NCBI GenBank assembly: GCA_012511885.1
Contig: JAAZFE010000014.1
Location: 1 to 50,661 of the forward strand
Direction: 5' to 3'
Source: Lentisphaerota bacterium
GTDB lineage: Bacteria > Verrucomicrobiota > Kiritimatiellia > CAIQIC01 > Lenti-01
Length of the DNA stretch: 50,661 bases
Shown here in pieces: positions 2,891-50,661 of this stretch. Every line of letters begins with the position of its first letter. Position 1 is the stretch's first letter. Made by a program: the position numbers and the translations under genes. The notes beneath the pieces are model-generated. The model was not told where the DNA came from and searched no databases. It saw nothing but the letters and a program-made list of their open reading frames with translations.

Positions 2891-4243
2891 TCAGGTTGCG
2901 ATGGGTAAAAGGGCGGTGGCGATGGAGAAGTAGATGAGAACGCCGAAGATGTCGGCGACGGAGGTGATGAGGGGGGCGCTGGCGGTGGCGGGGTCGAGGT
3001 CGAGTTTGTTGAGGATGAGGGGCAGGACGGTGCCGAGGAGGCTGCCGGCGACAATGACGGTGAACATGCTGAGGGCGACGACAACGCCAACCGAGAGGCC
3101 GCCGTGGAGCCAGCCGAGGAAGAAGGCGGCGAAGGACATGGCCAGGCCCATGATGGCGCTGACGCCGATTTCGCGGAGGAGGAGTTTCCACCAGTCGGCG
3201 GAGTCAATTTCGCCGGTGGCGATGGCGCGGACGACGAGGGTGGAGGCCTGGGCGCCGGCGTTGCCGCTGCTGCCGATGAGCAGGGGCAGGAAGAAGACGA
3301 GGACGACGACGGAGGAGATGGTGTCTTCGAAGAACTTGATGCCGGCGCCGGAGAAGATGTTGACGAGGATGAGGCCGAGGAGCCAGCCAATGCGTTTGCG
3401 ATAGAGGAGGCCGAGGGTGGCTTCTTTGAAGCTGATTTGCAGGGGCTGGACGGTGGCCAGTTTGTGGAAGTCTTCGGTGGCGGCGTCGGCGGCGACGTCG
3501 AGGATGTCGTCCACGGTGACGATGCCGAGGAGGATGTTGTCTTCGTCCACGACGGGCAGGGCGTGGAGGTCGTATTTGCGGAAGACCTGGACGGCCTCTT
3601 CTTCGTCCTGCTGGGAATGAAGGCTGGCATAGTGGCCGTCGAGAAGAGTGGCGACGGTGATGCCGGGGTCGGCCAGGATGAGGCGGCGCAGGGGGAGGTC
3701 GTCGCGGAGGTGGCCGGTTTCGTCCGTGATGTAGATCATGGACATGGTTTCGGAGTCGGTGCCGGTTTTGCGCAGGTGTTCGAGGGCCTGGGCCACGGTC
3801 CATTCGGGATCGACGGTGACATAGCGGTCGGTCATGAGGCGGCCGACGCTGTGCTGGGGATAGCTCAGGAGGGTGAGGGCCTGTTTGCGGTCCGAGTCGT
3901 CGAGAAGGGCGAGGAGGCGCTGGGTGACACGGGCGGGGAGTTCCTCGAAGAGGGCGGTGCGGTCGTCGGGCGAGAGGGCGGCGAGGACGGGCTGGATTTC
4001 CTCGTTGGCCATTTCGCTGAGGAGCTGGTTCTGGTAGATGGGATCGAGCAGCGAGAAGACTTCGTCGGCGAGCTGGCGGGGGAGGACGCGGAAGAGAAGG
4101 ACGCGGTCTTTGTCGGTGACGACGGTAAAAAGTTCGGCAACCTCGGGAGCGGGCTGTTCGAGGAAGAAGTCACGCAGTTCGTTGAAATGTCCGTCGGCGA
4201 GCATGTCCAGGATATCGGGGAGCAGGAGGTGGCGCAGGATCAT
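2891..4243 (-). CDS. mgtE: MgtE-family magnesium channel/transporter (copy 1)
   Basis: This inner-membrane Mg2+ channel has 450 residues, the normal length for the family. The layout is an N-terminal helical MgtE_N domain (residues about 1-130, with RVLPRQLADEVFSLLD), two CBS domains (about 130-255, with HSVGRLMTDRYVTV and LPVVDEDNILLGIVTVDDI), the plug helix and five transmembrane segments. The family motifs GNAGAQAST and APLITSVADIFGVLIYF, which contains the pore Asp, are present. In known MgtE proteins Mg2+ binding between the N and CBS domains closes the pore. The gene lies 51 bp after a paralogue, so the two form a tandem duplication. The CBS blocks are nearly identical while the membrane parts have diverged. 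Confidence 0.93.
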   Translation of the reverse strand: MILRHLLLPDILDMLADGHFNELRDFFLEQPAPEVAELFTVVTDKDRVLLFRVLPRQLADEVFSLLDPIYQNQLLSEMANEEIQPVLAALSPDDRTALFEELPARVTQRLLALLDDSDRKQALTLLSYPQHSVGRLMTDRYVTVDPEWTVAQALEHLRKTGTDSETMSMIYITDETGHLRDDLPLRRLILADPGITVATLLDGHYASLHSQQDEEEAVQVFRKYDLHALPVVDEDNILLGIVTVDDILDVAADAATEDFHKLATVQPLQISFKEATLGLLYRKRIGWLLGLILVNIFSGAGIKFFEDTISSVVVLVFFLPLLIGSSGNAGAQASTLVVRAIATGEIDSADWWKLLLREIGVSAIMGLAMSFAAFFLGWLHGGLSVGVVVALSMFTVIVAGSLLGTVLPLILNKLDLDPATASAPLITSVADIFGVLIYFSIATALLPIAT

Positions 4244-4294: not shown

Positions 4295-5641
4295 TCACAG
4301 TCCCAGGATGAAGTTGGCGATGGAAAAATAGATGAGGATGCCGAGGATGTCGGCCATGGAGGTGATGAGGGGGGCGCTGGCGGTGGCGGGGTCGAGATTG
4401 AGTTTGTGGAGGCCGATGGGCAGGAGCGCGCCGAGAAGGCTGCCGGTCATGACAACAGCCACCATGCTGAGGGCAACAGTGACGGCAATTTTGATGTCGC
4501 CGCGCCAAAGGCCGAGAGCAAAAACTCCGAGGGCCATGGTGAGGCCCAGGAGTGCGCTGAGGATGAACTCGCGGCCGAGGAGTTGACGCCAGTCGCGGGA
4601 ATGGACTTCGCCGGTGGCGATGGCGCGGACGATGAGCGTGGAGGTCTGGGAGCCGGCATTGCCACCGCTGTCGATGAGGAGCGGAAGGAAGAAGACGAGA
4701 GCGACCACGGCGGCGATGGTGTCTTCGAACATGGCCATGCCGGAGCCGGAGATGACGCCGGCGGCCACGAGGCCCAGCAGCCAGCCGATGCGCTTGCGCA
4801 CCAGCAGGCCGAGCGAGGCATGGCGCAGGCTGACGTGCAGGGGTTGGACGGTGGCGAGTTTGTGGAAGTCTTCGGTGGTGACTTCTTCGGCGACGTCGAG
4901 GATGTCGTCCACGGTGACGATGCCGAGCATGATGTTGTCCTCGTCCACGACGGGGAGGGCATGGAGGTCGTATTTGCGGAAGACCTGGACGGCTTCTTCT
5001 TCGTCCTGCTGGGAGTGGAGGCTGGCGTAGCGGCCATCGAGGAGGGAGAAGACCGTTGTGTTGGGATCGGCCAGGATGAGGCGGCGCAGGGGGAGGTCGT
5101 CGCTGAGGTGGCCGGTTTCGTCCGTGATATAGATCATGGACATGGTTTCGGAGTCGGTGCCGACTTTGCGCAGGTGGGCAAGGGCCTGGGCCACGGTCCA
5201 TTCGGGATGGACGGTGACATAGCGGTCGGTCATGAGGCGGCCGACACTGTGCTGGGGGTAGCTCAGGAGGGTGAGGGCCTGCATACGGTCGGTATCGTCG
5301 AGCACGCCAAGGAGGCGCCGCATGACGCGGGCGGGCAGCTCTTCGAAGAGGGCGGTGCGGTCGTCAGGGGGGAGGGCGGCGAGGACATGGCGGACTTCCT
5401 CGTGGGCCATTTCGTCGAGGAGCTGGTTTTGGAAGATGGGGTCGAGCAGGGAGAACACCTCGTCGGCGAGATGCCGCGGAAGAACGCGGAAGAGGAGGAC
5501 CCGGTCCTCGTTGGTGATGACGGTGAGGAGCTCGGCGATTTCGGGGGCGGGCTGGTTGGCGAGGAATTCACGCAATTCGGTGAGCTCGCCGGCGTGCAGC
5601 AGTTCGAGGATTTCCGGCAGGAGGAGATGGCGCAGGATCAT
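4295..5641 (-). CDS. mgtE: MgtE-family magnesium channel/transporter (copy 2)
   Basis: This is the 448-residue paralogue of the downstream gene and the first gene of the minus-strand run. It has the same order: MgtE_N domain, two CBS domains (HSVGRLMTDRYVTVHPEWTV; VVDEDNIMLGIVTVDDILDV) and five membrane helices with GNAGSQTST and APLITSMADILGILIYF. The C-terminal half differs from copy 1 in many hydrophobic positions, so the copies may differ in ion preference or gating. Some MgtE homologues carry Co2+ or Ni2+ as well. The 223-bp upstream region is shared with the divergent methyltransferase gene and holds a long-range inverted repeat, but I do not see M-box (ykoK) consensus there. Confidence 0.93.
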   Translation of the reverse strand: MILRHLLLPEILELLHAGELTELREFLANQPAPEIAELLTVITNEDRVLLFRVLPRHLADEVFSLLDPIFQNQLLDEMAHEEVRHVLAALPPDDRTALFEELPARVMRRLLGVLDDTDRMQALTLLSYPQHSVGRLMTDRYVTVHPEWTVAQALAHLRKVGTDSETMSMIYITDETGHLSDDLPLRRLILADPNTTVFSLLDGRYASLHSQQDEEEAVQVFRKYDLHALPVVDEDNIMLGIVTVDDILDVAEEVTTEDFHKLATVQPLHVSLRHASLGLLVRKRIGWLLGLVAAGVISGSGMAMFEDTIAAVVALVFFLPLLIDSGGNAGSQTSTLIVRAIATGEVHSRDWRQLLGREFILSALLGLTMALGVFALGLWRGDIKIAVTVALSMVAVVMTGSLLGALLPIGLHKLNLDPATASAPLITSMADILGILIYFSIANFILGL

Positions 5642-22305: not shown

Positions 22306-23190
22306 ATGCGACCCATTGGACATTTGCCGACGGAAGACCAGGCGCAGACTCTGGTTGATTATCTGTATCTGCATGATATCGAGGCCCAAGTGGAGACGAA
22401 TCGTGGGGGGGAGCAGATCATCTGGGTGATCGAGGAATCGCAGGTGGACGAGGCTCGGGGGCTGTTGTCGCGTTTTCGAAGCATGCCCAACGCGGAGGAA
22501 TTCAGCGAAGCGCGCCGCGCGGCTGAAGCGCGGCGAAAAGCCGAGAAAAAGAGCGAAATCGAGCAAAATAAGCGGTTGCCGAGGCCAAAAACTGCGGTTT
22601 TTCGGGGAAATCGAGGCGGATTCACCCTTTTTTTGCTGTTGGCGAGCATTTTGGTGGCACTTTTGACCCGTTTTGGCGAAAACTCGGCTTGGACAGGCTG
22701 GTTTTTGATTGCCGGCGGGAATCCGTTCGTGACGGCGCTTCAGGGCGTCAAACTGCCGGAGGTGGCGCAGGGTCAGATTTGGCGGCTGTTTACGCCGATT
22801 TTTCTGCATTTTACCTGGTGGCATCTGCTGTTCAACCTGCTGTGGTTGCAGGATCTTGGGCAGGTTTTGGAAGCGCGGATTGGCACCGCGCGCTATGCGG
22901 GAGCCATCTTGCTGATGGCGCTGGTGTCGAATCTGGCGCAGTTTTTTCTGGGCGGGCCATATTTTGGCGGCATGAGCGGGGTGGTGTACGGCCTTTTTGG
23001 CTATTTATGGGTGCGGAACCGGCTGGATCCGCGGTTTGGGGTGATGATTTCGCCGTTGGCGGGCGGTATGCTGATGGTGTTTTTGGCGATGGGGATGTTT
23101 GGGCTGGTGGGGCCGACGGCCAACGCCGCGCATTTTTCCGGACTGATGGCGGGGGCGGCGCTGGGGTGGTTGGCGGCGCACGAGCGCTAA
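22306..23190 (+). CDS. GlpG-like rhomboid intramembrane serine protease
   Basis: The product has 294 residues. An N-terminal soluble domain (1-60, PTEDQAQTLVDYLYLHDIEA) resembles the GlpG cytoplasmic domain and is followed by a charged linker and about six membrane helices. Catalytic Ser224 (GGMSGVVYGL) and His276 (NAAHFSGLMAG), Trp159-Arg160 in L1, His168, and His173/Asn177 (HLLFN) are all in place. Their spacing matches Escherichia coli GlpG residues 136/137, 145, 150, 154, 201 and 254 with shifts of +22 or +23. It should cleave membrane proteins near the periplasmic face. The upstream 212 bp hold no gene and are rich in TTTT/GGGG patterns. Its stop is followed within 10 bp by dispersed repeats. 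Confidence 0.93.
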   Translation: MRPIGHLPTEDQAQTLVDYLYLHDIEAQVETNRGGEQIIWVIEESQVDEARGLLSRFRSMPNAEEFSEARRAAEARRKAEKKSEIEQNKRLPRPKTAVFRGNRGGFTLFLLLASILVALLTRFGENSAWTGWFLIAGGNPFVTALQGVKLPEVAQGQIWRLFTPIFLHFTWWHLLFNLLWLQDLGQVLEARIGTARYAGAILLMALVSNLAQFFLGGPYFGGMSGVVYGLFGYLWVRNRLDPRFGVMISPLAGGMLMVFLAMGMFGLVGPTANAAHFSGLMAGAALGWLAAHER

Positions 23191-23196
23191 CCTTAA

Positions 23197-23249
23197 TCTT
23201 TCATCAACATGGACGGAAAGAACGATGCTGGCTGGGGAGCAGCAGGATT
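23197..23249 (+). repeat. Dispersed repeat, truncated head fragment
   Basis: TCTTTCATCAACATGGACGG and then GAGCAGCAGGATT correspond to the left 55 bp of the repeat. The rest is missing and a full copy begins directly after it. Confidence 0.65.
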
Positions 23250-23465
23250 CTGAATAATTCATCAACATGGATGAAAGTATTGTTATTTTCTGTGGGGCAG
23301 CATGATGCGGATATTTGGATGAAAAAAAATATTTTTCATTCCTGTTGCCCTTCGGCGCGACGATTCCAACCCGTCTGCGGCGTTATTCGGGGTTCACAGT
23401 ATGTCCATACAGCTTCACCCCGCCTGCCTTGCATCCGGGCCGGACTTGTCGCGTGAATGATCCAG
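23250..23465 (+). repeat. Dispersed 216-bp repeat, full copy C
   Basis: It begins CTGAATAATTCATC and ends GTGAATGATCCAG. It contains GATGAAAAAA...TTTTTCATT as an internal hairpin, GCGACGATTCC at 23357-23367, and a CGGGGT...ACCCCG stem around GTATGTCCATAC. It lies between the rhomboid gene and tatD. Confidence 0.85.
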
Positions 23466-23479
23466 GGGATGTGGAAATG

Positions 23480-23628
23480 CAAGTAAAAAAAATTTTCCTT
23501 CCATGTTGTCCTCTGGTGCGACGATTCCGCCCCATTGCTATCGTCTTCGAAGCTCGCAGTATGCCAATATAGTAGCTTCGTCTCGAACGCATTGAGTCCG
23601 GGGGAGACTTGTCGCGTGAATTCTCCAG
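23480..23628 (+). repeat. Dispersed repeat, diverged tail fragment
   Basis: The right part of the repeat is present without its head: CCTTCCATGTTGTCC, GCGACGATTCC at 23518-23528, CTCGCAGTATGCC and GACTTGTCGCGTGAATTCTC at the end. It is more diverged than the copy beside it. Confidence 0.7.
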
Positions 23629-23637
23629 GTTGTAAAC

Positions 23638-23756
23638 CATTCTCACATATTATAATAAGTGAGAATATGAGAATATATAACATTCATGTTGCCAATATGT
23701 TATGACTATTATATTTTGCAAATTCATTCTCACTTATTATAATATGTGAGAATGAA
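23638..23756. repeat. AT-rich 119-bp element with perfect 29-bp inverted ends
   Basis: The 29 bases at 23638-23666 are the exact reverse complement of 23726-23754, and each arm is itself a near-palindrome (ATTCTCAC...GTGAGAAT). The right arm extends to 11-bp arms TTCATTCTCAC/GTGAGAATGAA. The segment is strikingly AT-rich in this GC-rich genome. It appears inserted within or beside an old copy of the dispersed repeat (CATTCATGTTGCC at about 23680). No coding capacity is seen. Confidence 0.75.
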
Positions 23757-23812
23757 CTTGTTGTTGGAGCGACGATTCCGGCTTGTCCGGGGTGTTATTC
23801 GGGGTTTGTGGA
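23757..23812 (+). repeat. Dispersed repeat, short fragment after the AT-rich element
   Basis: GCGACGATTCC at 23769-23779 followed by GTGTTATTCGGGGTTTGTGG aligns with the middle of the repeat. The right end is lost. Positions 23813-23893 show nothing beyond the tatD leader. Confidence 0.6.
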
Positions 23813-23893
23813 GCCGATGGCTGATGTCAGGGGGGCGACCGGGGATGGCAAATTTTATTGAACGGAGGGCGGGTGGAGGGCTAGGGTAGGAGG

Positions 23894-24691
23894 GTGAACC
23901 TGTTTGATACTCACGCGCATTTGGATGGCTTTGTGGCGGATGGAACCGTGGAGGCGGTTTTGGATCGCGCCAGGGCGGCGGGGGTGGAGTCGGTTTGCGT
24001 GGTGGGCAGCTCGGCGGTGTCGAATGAGCTGGTGGCGGATTTGGTGCGGGCCCGGCCGGAGATGCTGGTGGGGGCTGCGGGGCTGGACCGGGATCAGGCG
24101 GAGCTGTCGCCGGATATGGAGCGGCTGGCGGAATTGCTCGAGGGGGCGGGCATGGTGGCGGTGGGGGAGATCGGTTTGGATTATCATTACTCGGGCGGGA
24201 CGGCGGGGGCGCAGCGCGGGCTGTTTGGACGGATGCTGGAGTTCGCGCTGGAGCGGCGCAAGCCGGTGATTGTGCACAGCCGGGAAGCGGATGATGACAC
24301 GCTGGCGATGCTGTCGGAGTTTGCCGATGCCTGGAGGGGGCGGGGGGGGGCGTCGCCGCCGGGTATTCTGCACTGCTTTACGGGGGGAGCGGAGTTCGCG
24401 GAGCGGTTGGTGGCGGCGGGGCTGATGATCAGTTTTAGCGGGATTGTCAGTTTCAACAATGCGGGGCCGCTGCGCGAGGTGGCGCGGCGGATTCCGGATG
24501 AACGGCTGCTGATCGAGACGGATTGTCCGTATTTGGCGCCGAAGCCGTACCGGGGGCGGGTGAACGAGCCGGCTTATGTGGCGCGGGTGGCCGAGGTGCT
24601 GGCGGAAACGCGGGGGGTGAGGGTGGAGGAGCTGGCGGCGTTGACGAGGGCGAACGCGAGGCGGGTTTTTCAATTGGAGGACGGGTCATGA
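23894..24691 (+). CDS. tatD: TatD-family metal-dependent hydrolase/DNase
   Basis: This 265-residue TIM-barrel amidohydrolase has its metal ligands His7 and His9 (DTHAHL), Glu92 (GEIGLDY), His128 (IVHSRE), His160 (LHCFTG) and Asp210 (ETDCPYLAP) in place. Family members act as 3'-5' DNases in repair or in quality control. GTG at 23894 gives MNLFDTH, but AGGAGG directly abuts it with no spacing, so CTG at 23900 may be the true start, which would remove only two residues. The stop overlaps the ROK kinase start (ATGA). It probably heads a three-gene run with the kinase and the patatin-like gene. Confidence 0.9.
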   Translation: MNLFDTHAHLDGFVADGTVEAVLDRARAAGVESVCVVGSSAVSNELVADLVRARPEMLVGAAGLDRDQAELSPDMERLAELLEGAGMVAVGEIGLDYHYSGGTAGAQRGLFGRMLEFALERRKPVIVHSREADDDTLAMLSEFADAWRGRGGASPPGILHCFTGGAEFAERLVAAGLMISFSGIVSFNNAGPLREVARRIPDERLLIETDCPYLAPKPYRGRVNEPAYVARVAEVLAETRGVRVEELAALTRANARRVFQLEDGS

Positions 24692-30909: not shown

Positions 30910-31434
30910 ATGAAGAAAGTTGCATTGTGGACACTCACCGTTCTTTTCGCGCTGACCATGAATTCGTCGGCTTGGTGGTGGCGCAAAGCCGCTGCCGAGG
31001 ATGAATCGGCCGCCAAAACCGAACAGGTTGTCGAGAAGAAGGCGGAAAAGAAGGTAGAGAAGGCCGAGAAGAAGGCGGCCCAAAAGACGCGAAAGGGCGC
31101 CAAGAAGGCTGATTGCGCCGAGAAAAAGGCCAAGAAAGCCGACGCCGAGGTAGAGAAAAAGGCCAAGAAGGCCGACGCCAAGGCGGAGACCGCTGACAAG
31201 AAGGCCAAACAGTCCGGGAAAAAGGCGGATGCCGAGGTAGAGAAGAAGGCGAAGAAGGCCGACGCCAAGGCCGAAACCGCCGGGAAGAAGGCTAAGCAGG
31301 CTGAAAAGAAAGCCGATGCCGAGGCCGGGAAGAAAGCCAAGAAAGCTGAAACCAAGGTAGAGAAGAAGGTCAAGAAGGCGGCGGAAGCCGTTGAAGAGGC
31401 CGTCGAAGCGCCGGTGGAGGCCGCAACGGAATAG
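30910..31434 (+). CDS. Secreted Lys/Ala/Glu-rich repetitive helical protein
   Basis: The product has 174 residues. A signal peptide (MKKVALWTLTVLFALTMNSS, then AWWWRK) is followed by an almost pure Lys-Ala-Glu-Asp helix. A unit of about 29 residues, KKADAEVEKKAKKADAKAET plus DKKAKQSG, is repeated nearly exactly once and then partly again. The C-terminus turns acidic (AAEAVEEAVEAPVEAATE). I do not recognise a family. The composition resembles histone H1-like or TolA-like stalk regions, so an envelope spacer or polyanion-binding role is possible but unproven. AGGAGG lies seven bases before the ATG. The gene has its own likely promoter and a strong terminator, which suggests high expression. Confidence 0.75.
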   Translation: MKKVALWTLTVLFALTMNSSAWWWRKAAAEDESAAKTEQVVEKKAEKKVEKAEKKAAQKTRKGAKKADCAEKKAKKADAEVEKKAKKADAKAETADKKAKQSGKKADAEVEKKAKKADAKAETAGKKAKQAEKKADAEAGKKAKKAETKVEKKVKKAAEAVEEAVEAPVEAATE

Positions 31435-50337: not shown

Positions 50338-50338
50338 C

Positions 50339-50446
50339 CTGAATAATTCATCAACATGGATGAAAGTATTGTTATTTGCTGCGGAGCAGTATGATGCGGA
50401 TATTTGAGTAGGAAAAGTTATTTTTCATCCCTGTTGCCCTTCGGGG
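50339..50446 (+). repeat. Dispersed repeat, copy D (right half missing)
   Basis: CTGAATAATTCATC at 50339 begins the repeat. It follows the others through TTTTTCATCC and CTGTTGCCCTTCGG and then diverges at about 50446, where GGTGTAGGACAG replaces the GCGACGATTCC core. It starts directly after dtd. Confidence 0.82.
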
Positions 50447-50519
50447 TGTAGGACAGATTTTTGCGCGAAACGCAAAATAGGCTTGCAGTCCGCGCAACTA
50501 TAGCCTAGATTACTAGGCC

Positions 50520-50661
50520 ATGAAGACGCGATCCCATCCAAACCGTCGAGGCCAGGAGATTCTGGCGCAAATGGGGCAAATCCCCGTGATGATTCAAGGC
50601 AAGGTTTCTGAGCGTCGCCAAGGCGGCCGGGTGACCGGCCTCAAGTTGCAACGCTGGCGCA
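50520..50661 (+). CDS. Partial ORF at window edge, possible mobile-element helper
   Basis: ATG 50520 opens a frame of 47 residues that runs off the window: MKTRSHPNRRGQEILAQMG, then IPVMIQGKVSERRQGGRVTG and KLQRWR. I do not recognise it with confidence. The basic composition and the fragment 'QGKVSERR...LQRWR' recall short proteins found beside insertion-sequence transposase genes. Upstream lie the inverted repeats TTTTGCG-CGAAA-CGCAAAA (50459-50477) and GCCTAG-ATTA-CTAGGC just before the ATG. These and the truncated repeat at 50446 are consistent with the left end of an inserted element. Confidence 0.4.
   Translation, partial: MKTRSHPNRRGQEILAQMGQIPVMIQGKVSERRQGGRVTGLKLQRWR

Follow-up and report, generated by a model that had tools for sequence, protein, structure and literature searches.

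The AT-rich B element in the rhomboid-tatD interval of Lentisphaerota bacterium is, on balance, best interpreted as a helically phased pair of predicted binding sites for a protein with two winged-helix domains in tandem (wHTH). A sequence-only reading had described an AT-rich inserted element with inverted ends. The ends are real, but that reading missed that the arms are the palindrome flanking a tandem winged-helix gene, that arms and spacing are kept better than the spacer sequence and that the spacing is helically phased. On these three grounds a paired site for protein binding was preferred over a dead insertion as the reading of B.

Layout of the rhomboid-tatD interval

The window (the whole stretch of DNA analysed, 50,661 nucleotides) comes from an assembly of 166 contigs that is 84.6% complete. 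At 23188-23806 the 115-bp AT-rich B element is surrounded by fragments and a copy, four pieces in all, of a ~220-bp repeat (R) that is dispersed in the genome. The features, in window coordinates, are as follows.

22306..23190, + strand: rhomboid protease gene, left neighbour (Pfam Rhomboid, 3e-26)
23188..23248, + strand: R repeat head fragment (R 1-61; BLAST against another R copy, 74%)
23250..23466, + strand: R repeat, essentially full copy (R 5-220; BLAST against another R copy, 94%)
23486..23629, + strand: R repeat tail fragment (R 76-220; BLAST against another R copy, 72%)
23639..23666, unstranded: left palindromic arm of B, 28 bp (also present on both sides of the wHTH gene at C12:31285)
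23667..23725, + strand: B spacer, 59 bp, AT-rich (length equal in all 14 aligned copies)
23726..23753, unstranded: right palindromic arm of B, 28 bp (centre-to-centre distance to the left arm 87 bp)
23766..23806, + strand: R repeat core fragment (R 108-148), 12 bp right of B (BLAST, 83%)
23894..24691, + strand: tatD gene, right neighbour (Pfam TatD_DNase, 2e-66)

The stop codon of the rhomboid gene (23188-23190) overlaps the first bases of the R head fragment. The stack of R head, full copy, tail and core with an AT-rich piece among them, as described in the sequence-only reading, was confirmed by BLAST. The perfect 29-bp inverted ends that it reported were located at 23638-23666 and 23726-23754 (100% complementary), and its near-palindromic arms were found to have 13/14 base pairs symmetric within each 28-bp arm. 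It had also proposed a preferred landing site for two elements. B and R do share intergenic sites, R lying ≤150 bp from 17/27 arm loci of the same genome (permissive BLAST; the figure stands without a random expectation), but the rhomboid-tatD gap is not special, being one of many such nests.

The genome was searched with a 14-base half-arm pattern (≤1 mismatch), which gave 38 + 35 matches against 1 + 1 for the reversed control, so the arm is not confined to this interval. A local regulatory structure unique to rhomboid-tatD was ruled out because the arms occur genome-wide. No rhomboid match was found beside tatD in the tatD loci of 16 relatives (flank up to 1.5 kb, shorter in at least four), and these loci therefore held no homologous interval for comparison.

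R is ~217-226 bp long with inverted ends CCTGRATNATTCA / TGAATNATCCAGG. Of the essentially full copies in the own-genome stretches examined, 16/25 align from a flanking TA at the head, and ~40 R-like places were scored among 210 candidates in the genome. R looks like a TA-flanked miniature (MITE-like) element. At C84, C108 and C59 it resumes at R position 99-108, just 4-12 bp from an arm. Several contigs of the assembly start or finish in R, and at window 50338-50560 an R head precedes a ~116-bp sequence with 97-98% matches in four further contigs. Two further repeats were seen in the window: three 87-bp coding repeats at 31036-31392 (69-80% alike, rich in AAG/GCC codons, so that the stretch looks lysine/alanine-rich) and a 300-bp direct repeat at 2917-3216 and 4315-4614 (74% identity; possibly tandem paralogous genes).

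Structure and copies of the B element

B (23639-23753) consists of two 28-bp palindromes and a 59-bp spacer, with the centres 87 bp apart. Fourteen copies were aligned, namely 11 two-armed copies (one with a decayed right arm) and 3 in which one arm is cut by an insertion sequence (IS). Mean identity was 96% for the arms vs 60% for the spacers, and the spacer was 59 bp long in 14/14. The arms are palindromes without a loop, perfect or nearly so. Solo arms and half arms are also present in the genome.

Gene contexts were assigned with a simple custom gene caller, allowing a locus to overlap the end of a gene by 15-20 bp. All 30 arm loci examined in the genome lay outside called genes. Both neighbours were called for 15 loci (7 tandem, 7 convergent, 1 divergent), the other 15 being near contig or stretch ends. 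B was also considered as a promoter cassette, from a TGnTATAAT-like spacer motif noted by eye; this was dropped because the next downstream gene is not co-oriented in 7/11 complete copies.

Inspection by eye showed relatives of B that have diverged and bear different arms (TTTCCATATATAATTATATATGGAAA type) at L106 2945-3061, L058 1308-1435 and L054. Solo or half arms at L049 340-500, L052 130-300, L053 1900-2100 and the end of L107 lie inside a further conserved block (AACCACTCTCAAC...GGGCAACC) that seems to be a dispersed repeat of its own.

The tandem winged-helix gene and its palindromes

The wHTH gene (C12:31285-31827, 181 aa, two winged-helix domains) lies between two B copies, one at C12:31110-31224 and the other at C12:31899-32013. 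Upstream of a paralogue (C12:3122, 85%) is a diverged palindrome pair, likewise 87 bp apart. An AlphaFold structure model gave two winged helices (pLDDT 94.7). The NCBIfam ArsR/SmtB model NF033788 (HTH_metalloreg) matched in two stretches with 88.4 bits (cut-off 55) and phmmer gave matches to ArsR-family structures (best E 7e-5), identifying the arm-flanked protein as one with an ArsR-type winged-helix domain. Foldseek often placed ArsR-family structures in its top ranks, but no match reached E 0.001. No nuclease domain was found in the protein by domain searches or in the structure model. A pattern search for viral relatives of the family matched 11 stretches, 0 of which were confirmed.

Homologues were found in 17/23 genomes searched (own included), with 1-10 per genome. 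The arm pattern matched 22 stretches in a named-genome collection; two were examined (L136 and L139), and only L136 has a wHTH gene beside the arm. This stretch, from the Verrucomicrobiota MAG UBA1727, has the order arm, tandem wHTH gene, arm. Its homologue is a distant one (23% identity), and the outer sequence of the two palindromes around it is nearly the same.

Palindromes with a half-length ≥10 and ≤1 mismatch were sought at 30 wHTH gene loci (29 of the 30 homologue loci from the genome search, L171 being left out, plus UBA1727). A palindrome lay ≤330 bp from 26/30 genes: 23 upstream, as is expected of ArsR/SmtB autorepressors, and 3 downstream only. The nearest upstream palindrome was centred 12-42 bp before the start codon in 17/23 genes. 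Control windows of 330 bp contained a palindrome in 3/78 cases at the same loci away from the gene and in 2/24 tatD flanks. No palindrome was found within 330 bp of the wHTH gene at L160, L173, L176 and L184, and that at L165 is weak, 260 bp away and downstream only.

The palindromes differ among wHTH paralogues yet stay symmetric. Protein and palindrome distances were correlated in a Mantel test (r = 0.35, p = 0.0002, n = 25, leaving out L165 and the four palindrome-less genes), a correlation that could stem from common descent alone. G010 and other relatives have up to 10 tandem wHTH paralogues per genome, those examined having different palindromes. It is possible that such sets are sets of orthogonal regulators.

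Dispersed palindromes in related genomes

A generic arm pattern (≤2 mismatches) had matches in 9/28 genomes of the order, with 9-38 sites each; the reversed pattern gave 0 in every one of the 28. In G018 there are 25 sites; over 24 bp, 24 of them are identical and the other differs by one change. The palindrome pair at the C14 wHTH gene of G018 is this dispersed palindrome. The sites form 17 loci (8 pairs, 9 singles), none inside a called gene and one overlapping a gene end by 15 bp. Neighbouring genes were tandem at 9, convergent at 6 and divergent at 2. Adding the own genome gives 32 loci with neighbours called on both sides, of which 16 were tandem, 13 convergent and 3 divergent (convergent > divergent, p = 0.02). 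G022 has three wHTH genes and two main palindrome classes, each at one of these genes.

Presence of wHTH genes was tabulated against palindromes for 23 genomes, with the generic arm pattern alone scored genome-wide. All six genomes without a wHTH match were also without a palindrome, and 10/17 with wHTH lack this pattern too (Fisher p = 0.12). Palindromes are present in G015 and G016, both outside the 23 genomes of the wHTH search.

Helical phasing of the palindrome pairs

Pairs of like palindromes were taken as those 40-170 bp apart with 14/20 bases alike (limits set by the analyst). The spacings, in 13 genomes, were 44, 44, 66-68, 75-79, 85, 87-89, 100, 111, 118 and 145-146 bp. They cluster near 44, 67, 78, 88, 100 and 111 bp with a period of 11.1-11.2 bp (p about 0.0002), the helically phased spacing that is sought in looping operator pairs. 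The spacings 75, 85 and 118 are off phase.

The full set contained 34 spacings: 30 by script, those of G002:C3, G007:C16 and G007:C28 from positions, and the 14 own B copies counted once. The L258 pair (78 bp, imperfect arms) was left out. Periods of 9-13 bp were scanned for data and null alike. The best period was 11.2 bp for the 34 pairs (R 0.79), 11.2 bp for the 27 left after dropping same-genome repeats of a spacing (R 0.77), 11.1 bp for the 24 pairs up to 111 bp (R 0.82) and 11.15 bp for one pair per genome and spacing class (n = 22, R 0.75). None of 5000 jittered null draws reached any of the four observed R values. At 10.5 bp R was lower, at 0.59-0.72 in the sets of 34, 27 and 24 pairs. 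Since the spacers of G018 are alike (51% vs 41% for shuffles), spacings within a genome are not independent, a dependence against which the clustered test (n = 22) alone guards. Designed loops in bacteria gave ~11 bp/turn in vivo (PMC8501960), and the observed spacing period is close to this helical repeat reported for DNA in living bacteria.

Insertion sequences in the arms

At 9/9 contig ends where such ends were located, an IS-like end abuts a half-arm at the arm centre; the IS body was not found. The first end type was present at C102, C6, C144 and C9 (4/4 copies found; loci L060, L061, L062 and L107) and the second at C77, C59, C14, C99 and C92 (5/5 copies found; loci L056, L059, L057, L049 and L108). 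In B-type arms, inspected by eye, the inner half is kept at C102, C6 and C144 and the outer half at C99, C14, C77 and C59. C9 and C92 lie in another repeat block, with the same arm side kept at both.

Two separate elements with one end each were considered and dropped, since both end types share a 17-bp terminal inverted repeat (14/17; a score reached by 17/2000 shuffles). From this repeat and the opposite kept halves the two types were read as the ends of one IS, which was taken to have made about five insertions, all found in arms. A different sequence joins the half-arm at the C12 end, and an IS4-type transposase remnant (DDE_Tnp_1) adjoins a half-arm at C60 (L058 113-779).

Proposed mechanism and alternatives

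ArsR proteins act mostly as dimers; looping has, to our knowledge, not been established for them. In the proposed mechanism a wHTH protein dimer would bind each palindrome, and two dimers bound on the same helix face would join, closing a loop of ~45-145 bp. Such a loop would repress the promoter of the protein's own gene. The dispersed copies, which lie between genes and are not promoter-biased, would be further docking sites of the same protein. Copies of B may have spread by copying of the surrounding intergenic blocks, often with the R repeat, and selection for binding would then have preserved the arms. The function of these copies is the least certain part and may be local chromosome folding, repressor titration or self-spreading.

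A wider proposal is offered tentatively, and is less probable than the reading of B itself. Families of tandem wHTH proteins with their own dispersed phased palindrome pairs might constitute private chromosome-looping systems in this bacterial order. Each paralogue would have a palindrome and a regulatory loop of its own. Some would also have 10-40 docking sites, which would either serve local folding of the chromosome or spread as a repeat coupled to a DNA-bridging protein rather than to a transposase.

The alternative that survives best, though a doubtful one, is that B is a small mobile element (REPIN/MITE-like). Its arms would be the ends recognised by an unseen transposase, the phasing would come from end pairing in the transposition complex, and the wHTH gene would be a passenger or regulator. 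Terminal inverted repeats such as those of MITEs are present (29 bp, 100% complementary). Dispersal, pairing and conserved ends have been described for REPINs (PMC3116915), and the copies of B are likewise dispersed, with conserved ends and a variable spacer. The end-looping component has a parallel in the helical size periods of Paramecium IESs, which were ascribed to looping of the ends (PMC3464196). At C108 an R head piece lies left of B and R 102-218 lies right of it, so that B sits within an R copy; by eye, C124, C142, C14, C60, C102 and C6 are alike beside the arm, indicating that B was copied with its neighbours. In the inspected flanks, judged by eye and with no empty site for comparison, no clear target duplication was evident, and no parent transposon with the same ends was noticed in the own-genome contig stretches, which were inspected unsystematically (~200 kb; assembly 85% complete). 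The lack of a REP tag argues against such an element, GTAG/CGTC occurring within 6 bp of the arms at 0/27 sites in the own genome and 1/25 in G018. The arm-flanked gene, moreover, encodes a DNA-binding protein in which no nuclease domain was found, and most of the palindromes stand shortly ahead of the start codon of the wHTH gene, where regulatory sites lie.

That position would also suit ordinary regulon operators, from which the wHTH protein would repress many dispersed genes at their promoters, and some G018 sites do lie 26-166 bp from the start of a gene facing them. This explanation is unlikely: the 32 loci with both neighbours include 13 convergent ones that face no gene start, against 16 tandem and 3 divergent, and the genes beside the G018 sites look functionally mixed (by eye). 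Chance AT-rich palindromes or functionless repeat debris, suggested by the position of B among decayed R fragments, are very improbable and strongly disfavoured by the counts, as the arm pattern (≤3 mismatches) matched twice in the window and never in 100 shuffles of it, the reversed pattern gave 0 in 28 genomes, and the spacer has no indel in 14 copies despite 60% identity.

Dispersed bacterial REP palindromes are often explained by HUH transposases (RAYT). By contrast, the gene linked to the palindromes here encodes a DNA-binding protein whose paralogues have different palindromes. With site pairs near whole turns of ~11.15 bp, evolution has seemingly carried out a natural helical-twist experiment. 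If B is indeed a paired binding site, these genomes allow DNA looping at dispersed sites to be put to the test and supply many candidate orthogonal protein-operator pairs. From sequence they also yield an estimate of in vivo DNA twist for a group that is represented here solely by assembled genomes.

Comparison with known systems

In open-access literature, covered by titles and abstract openings, no winged-helix gene tied to dispersed phased palindrome pairs was found. The palindrome pairs resemble lac-type looping operator pairs in having two sites on one helix face with a period of ~11 bp/turn. They differ in being genome-dispersed, mostly off promoters and linked to another protein family, and in being known here from sequence alone. 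The winged-helix fold and the palindrome near the gene's own start codon are shared with ArsR/SmtB autorepressors. Here, however, there are two wHTH domains per chain, and a genome has 1-10 paralogues, most of the examined ones having a palindrome of their own; the palindrome occurs also at many places away from the gene, often paired.

Seven copies of ISPpu9 are reported, all within REPs (PMC8450116). As with ISPpu9 and other REP-targeting IS, IS ends were here found solely in dispersed palindromes; those described above abut half-arms of the B palindrome, and the IS is known from its ends alone.

REPs are tagged with GTAG or CGTC, RAYT genes accompanying the GTAG type, and Opitutus terrae (Verrucomicrobia) is rich in GTAG repeats (PMC3733652). 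The B palindromes belong to the same 20-40 bp class as those of the REPIN/REP system and are likewise dispersed and extragenic, as singles or inverted pairs. Conserved ends, a variable spacer, a gene flanked by the repeats and an IS that targets the palindrome are further points of likeness. In contrast to REPs, B is without the GTAG/CGTC tag, and its palindromes are zero-loop and AT-rich, with a spacing phased at ~11 bp over several turns. The gene linked to B encodes a tandem winged-helix DNA-binding protein, where that of the REPIN/RAYT system encodes an HUH transposase.
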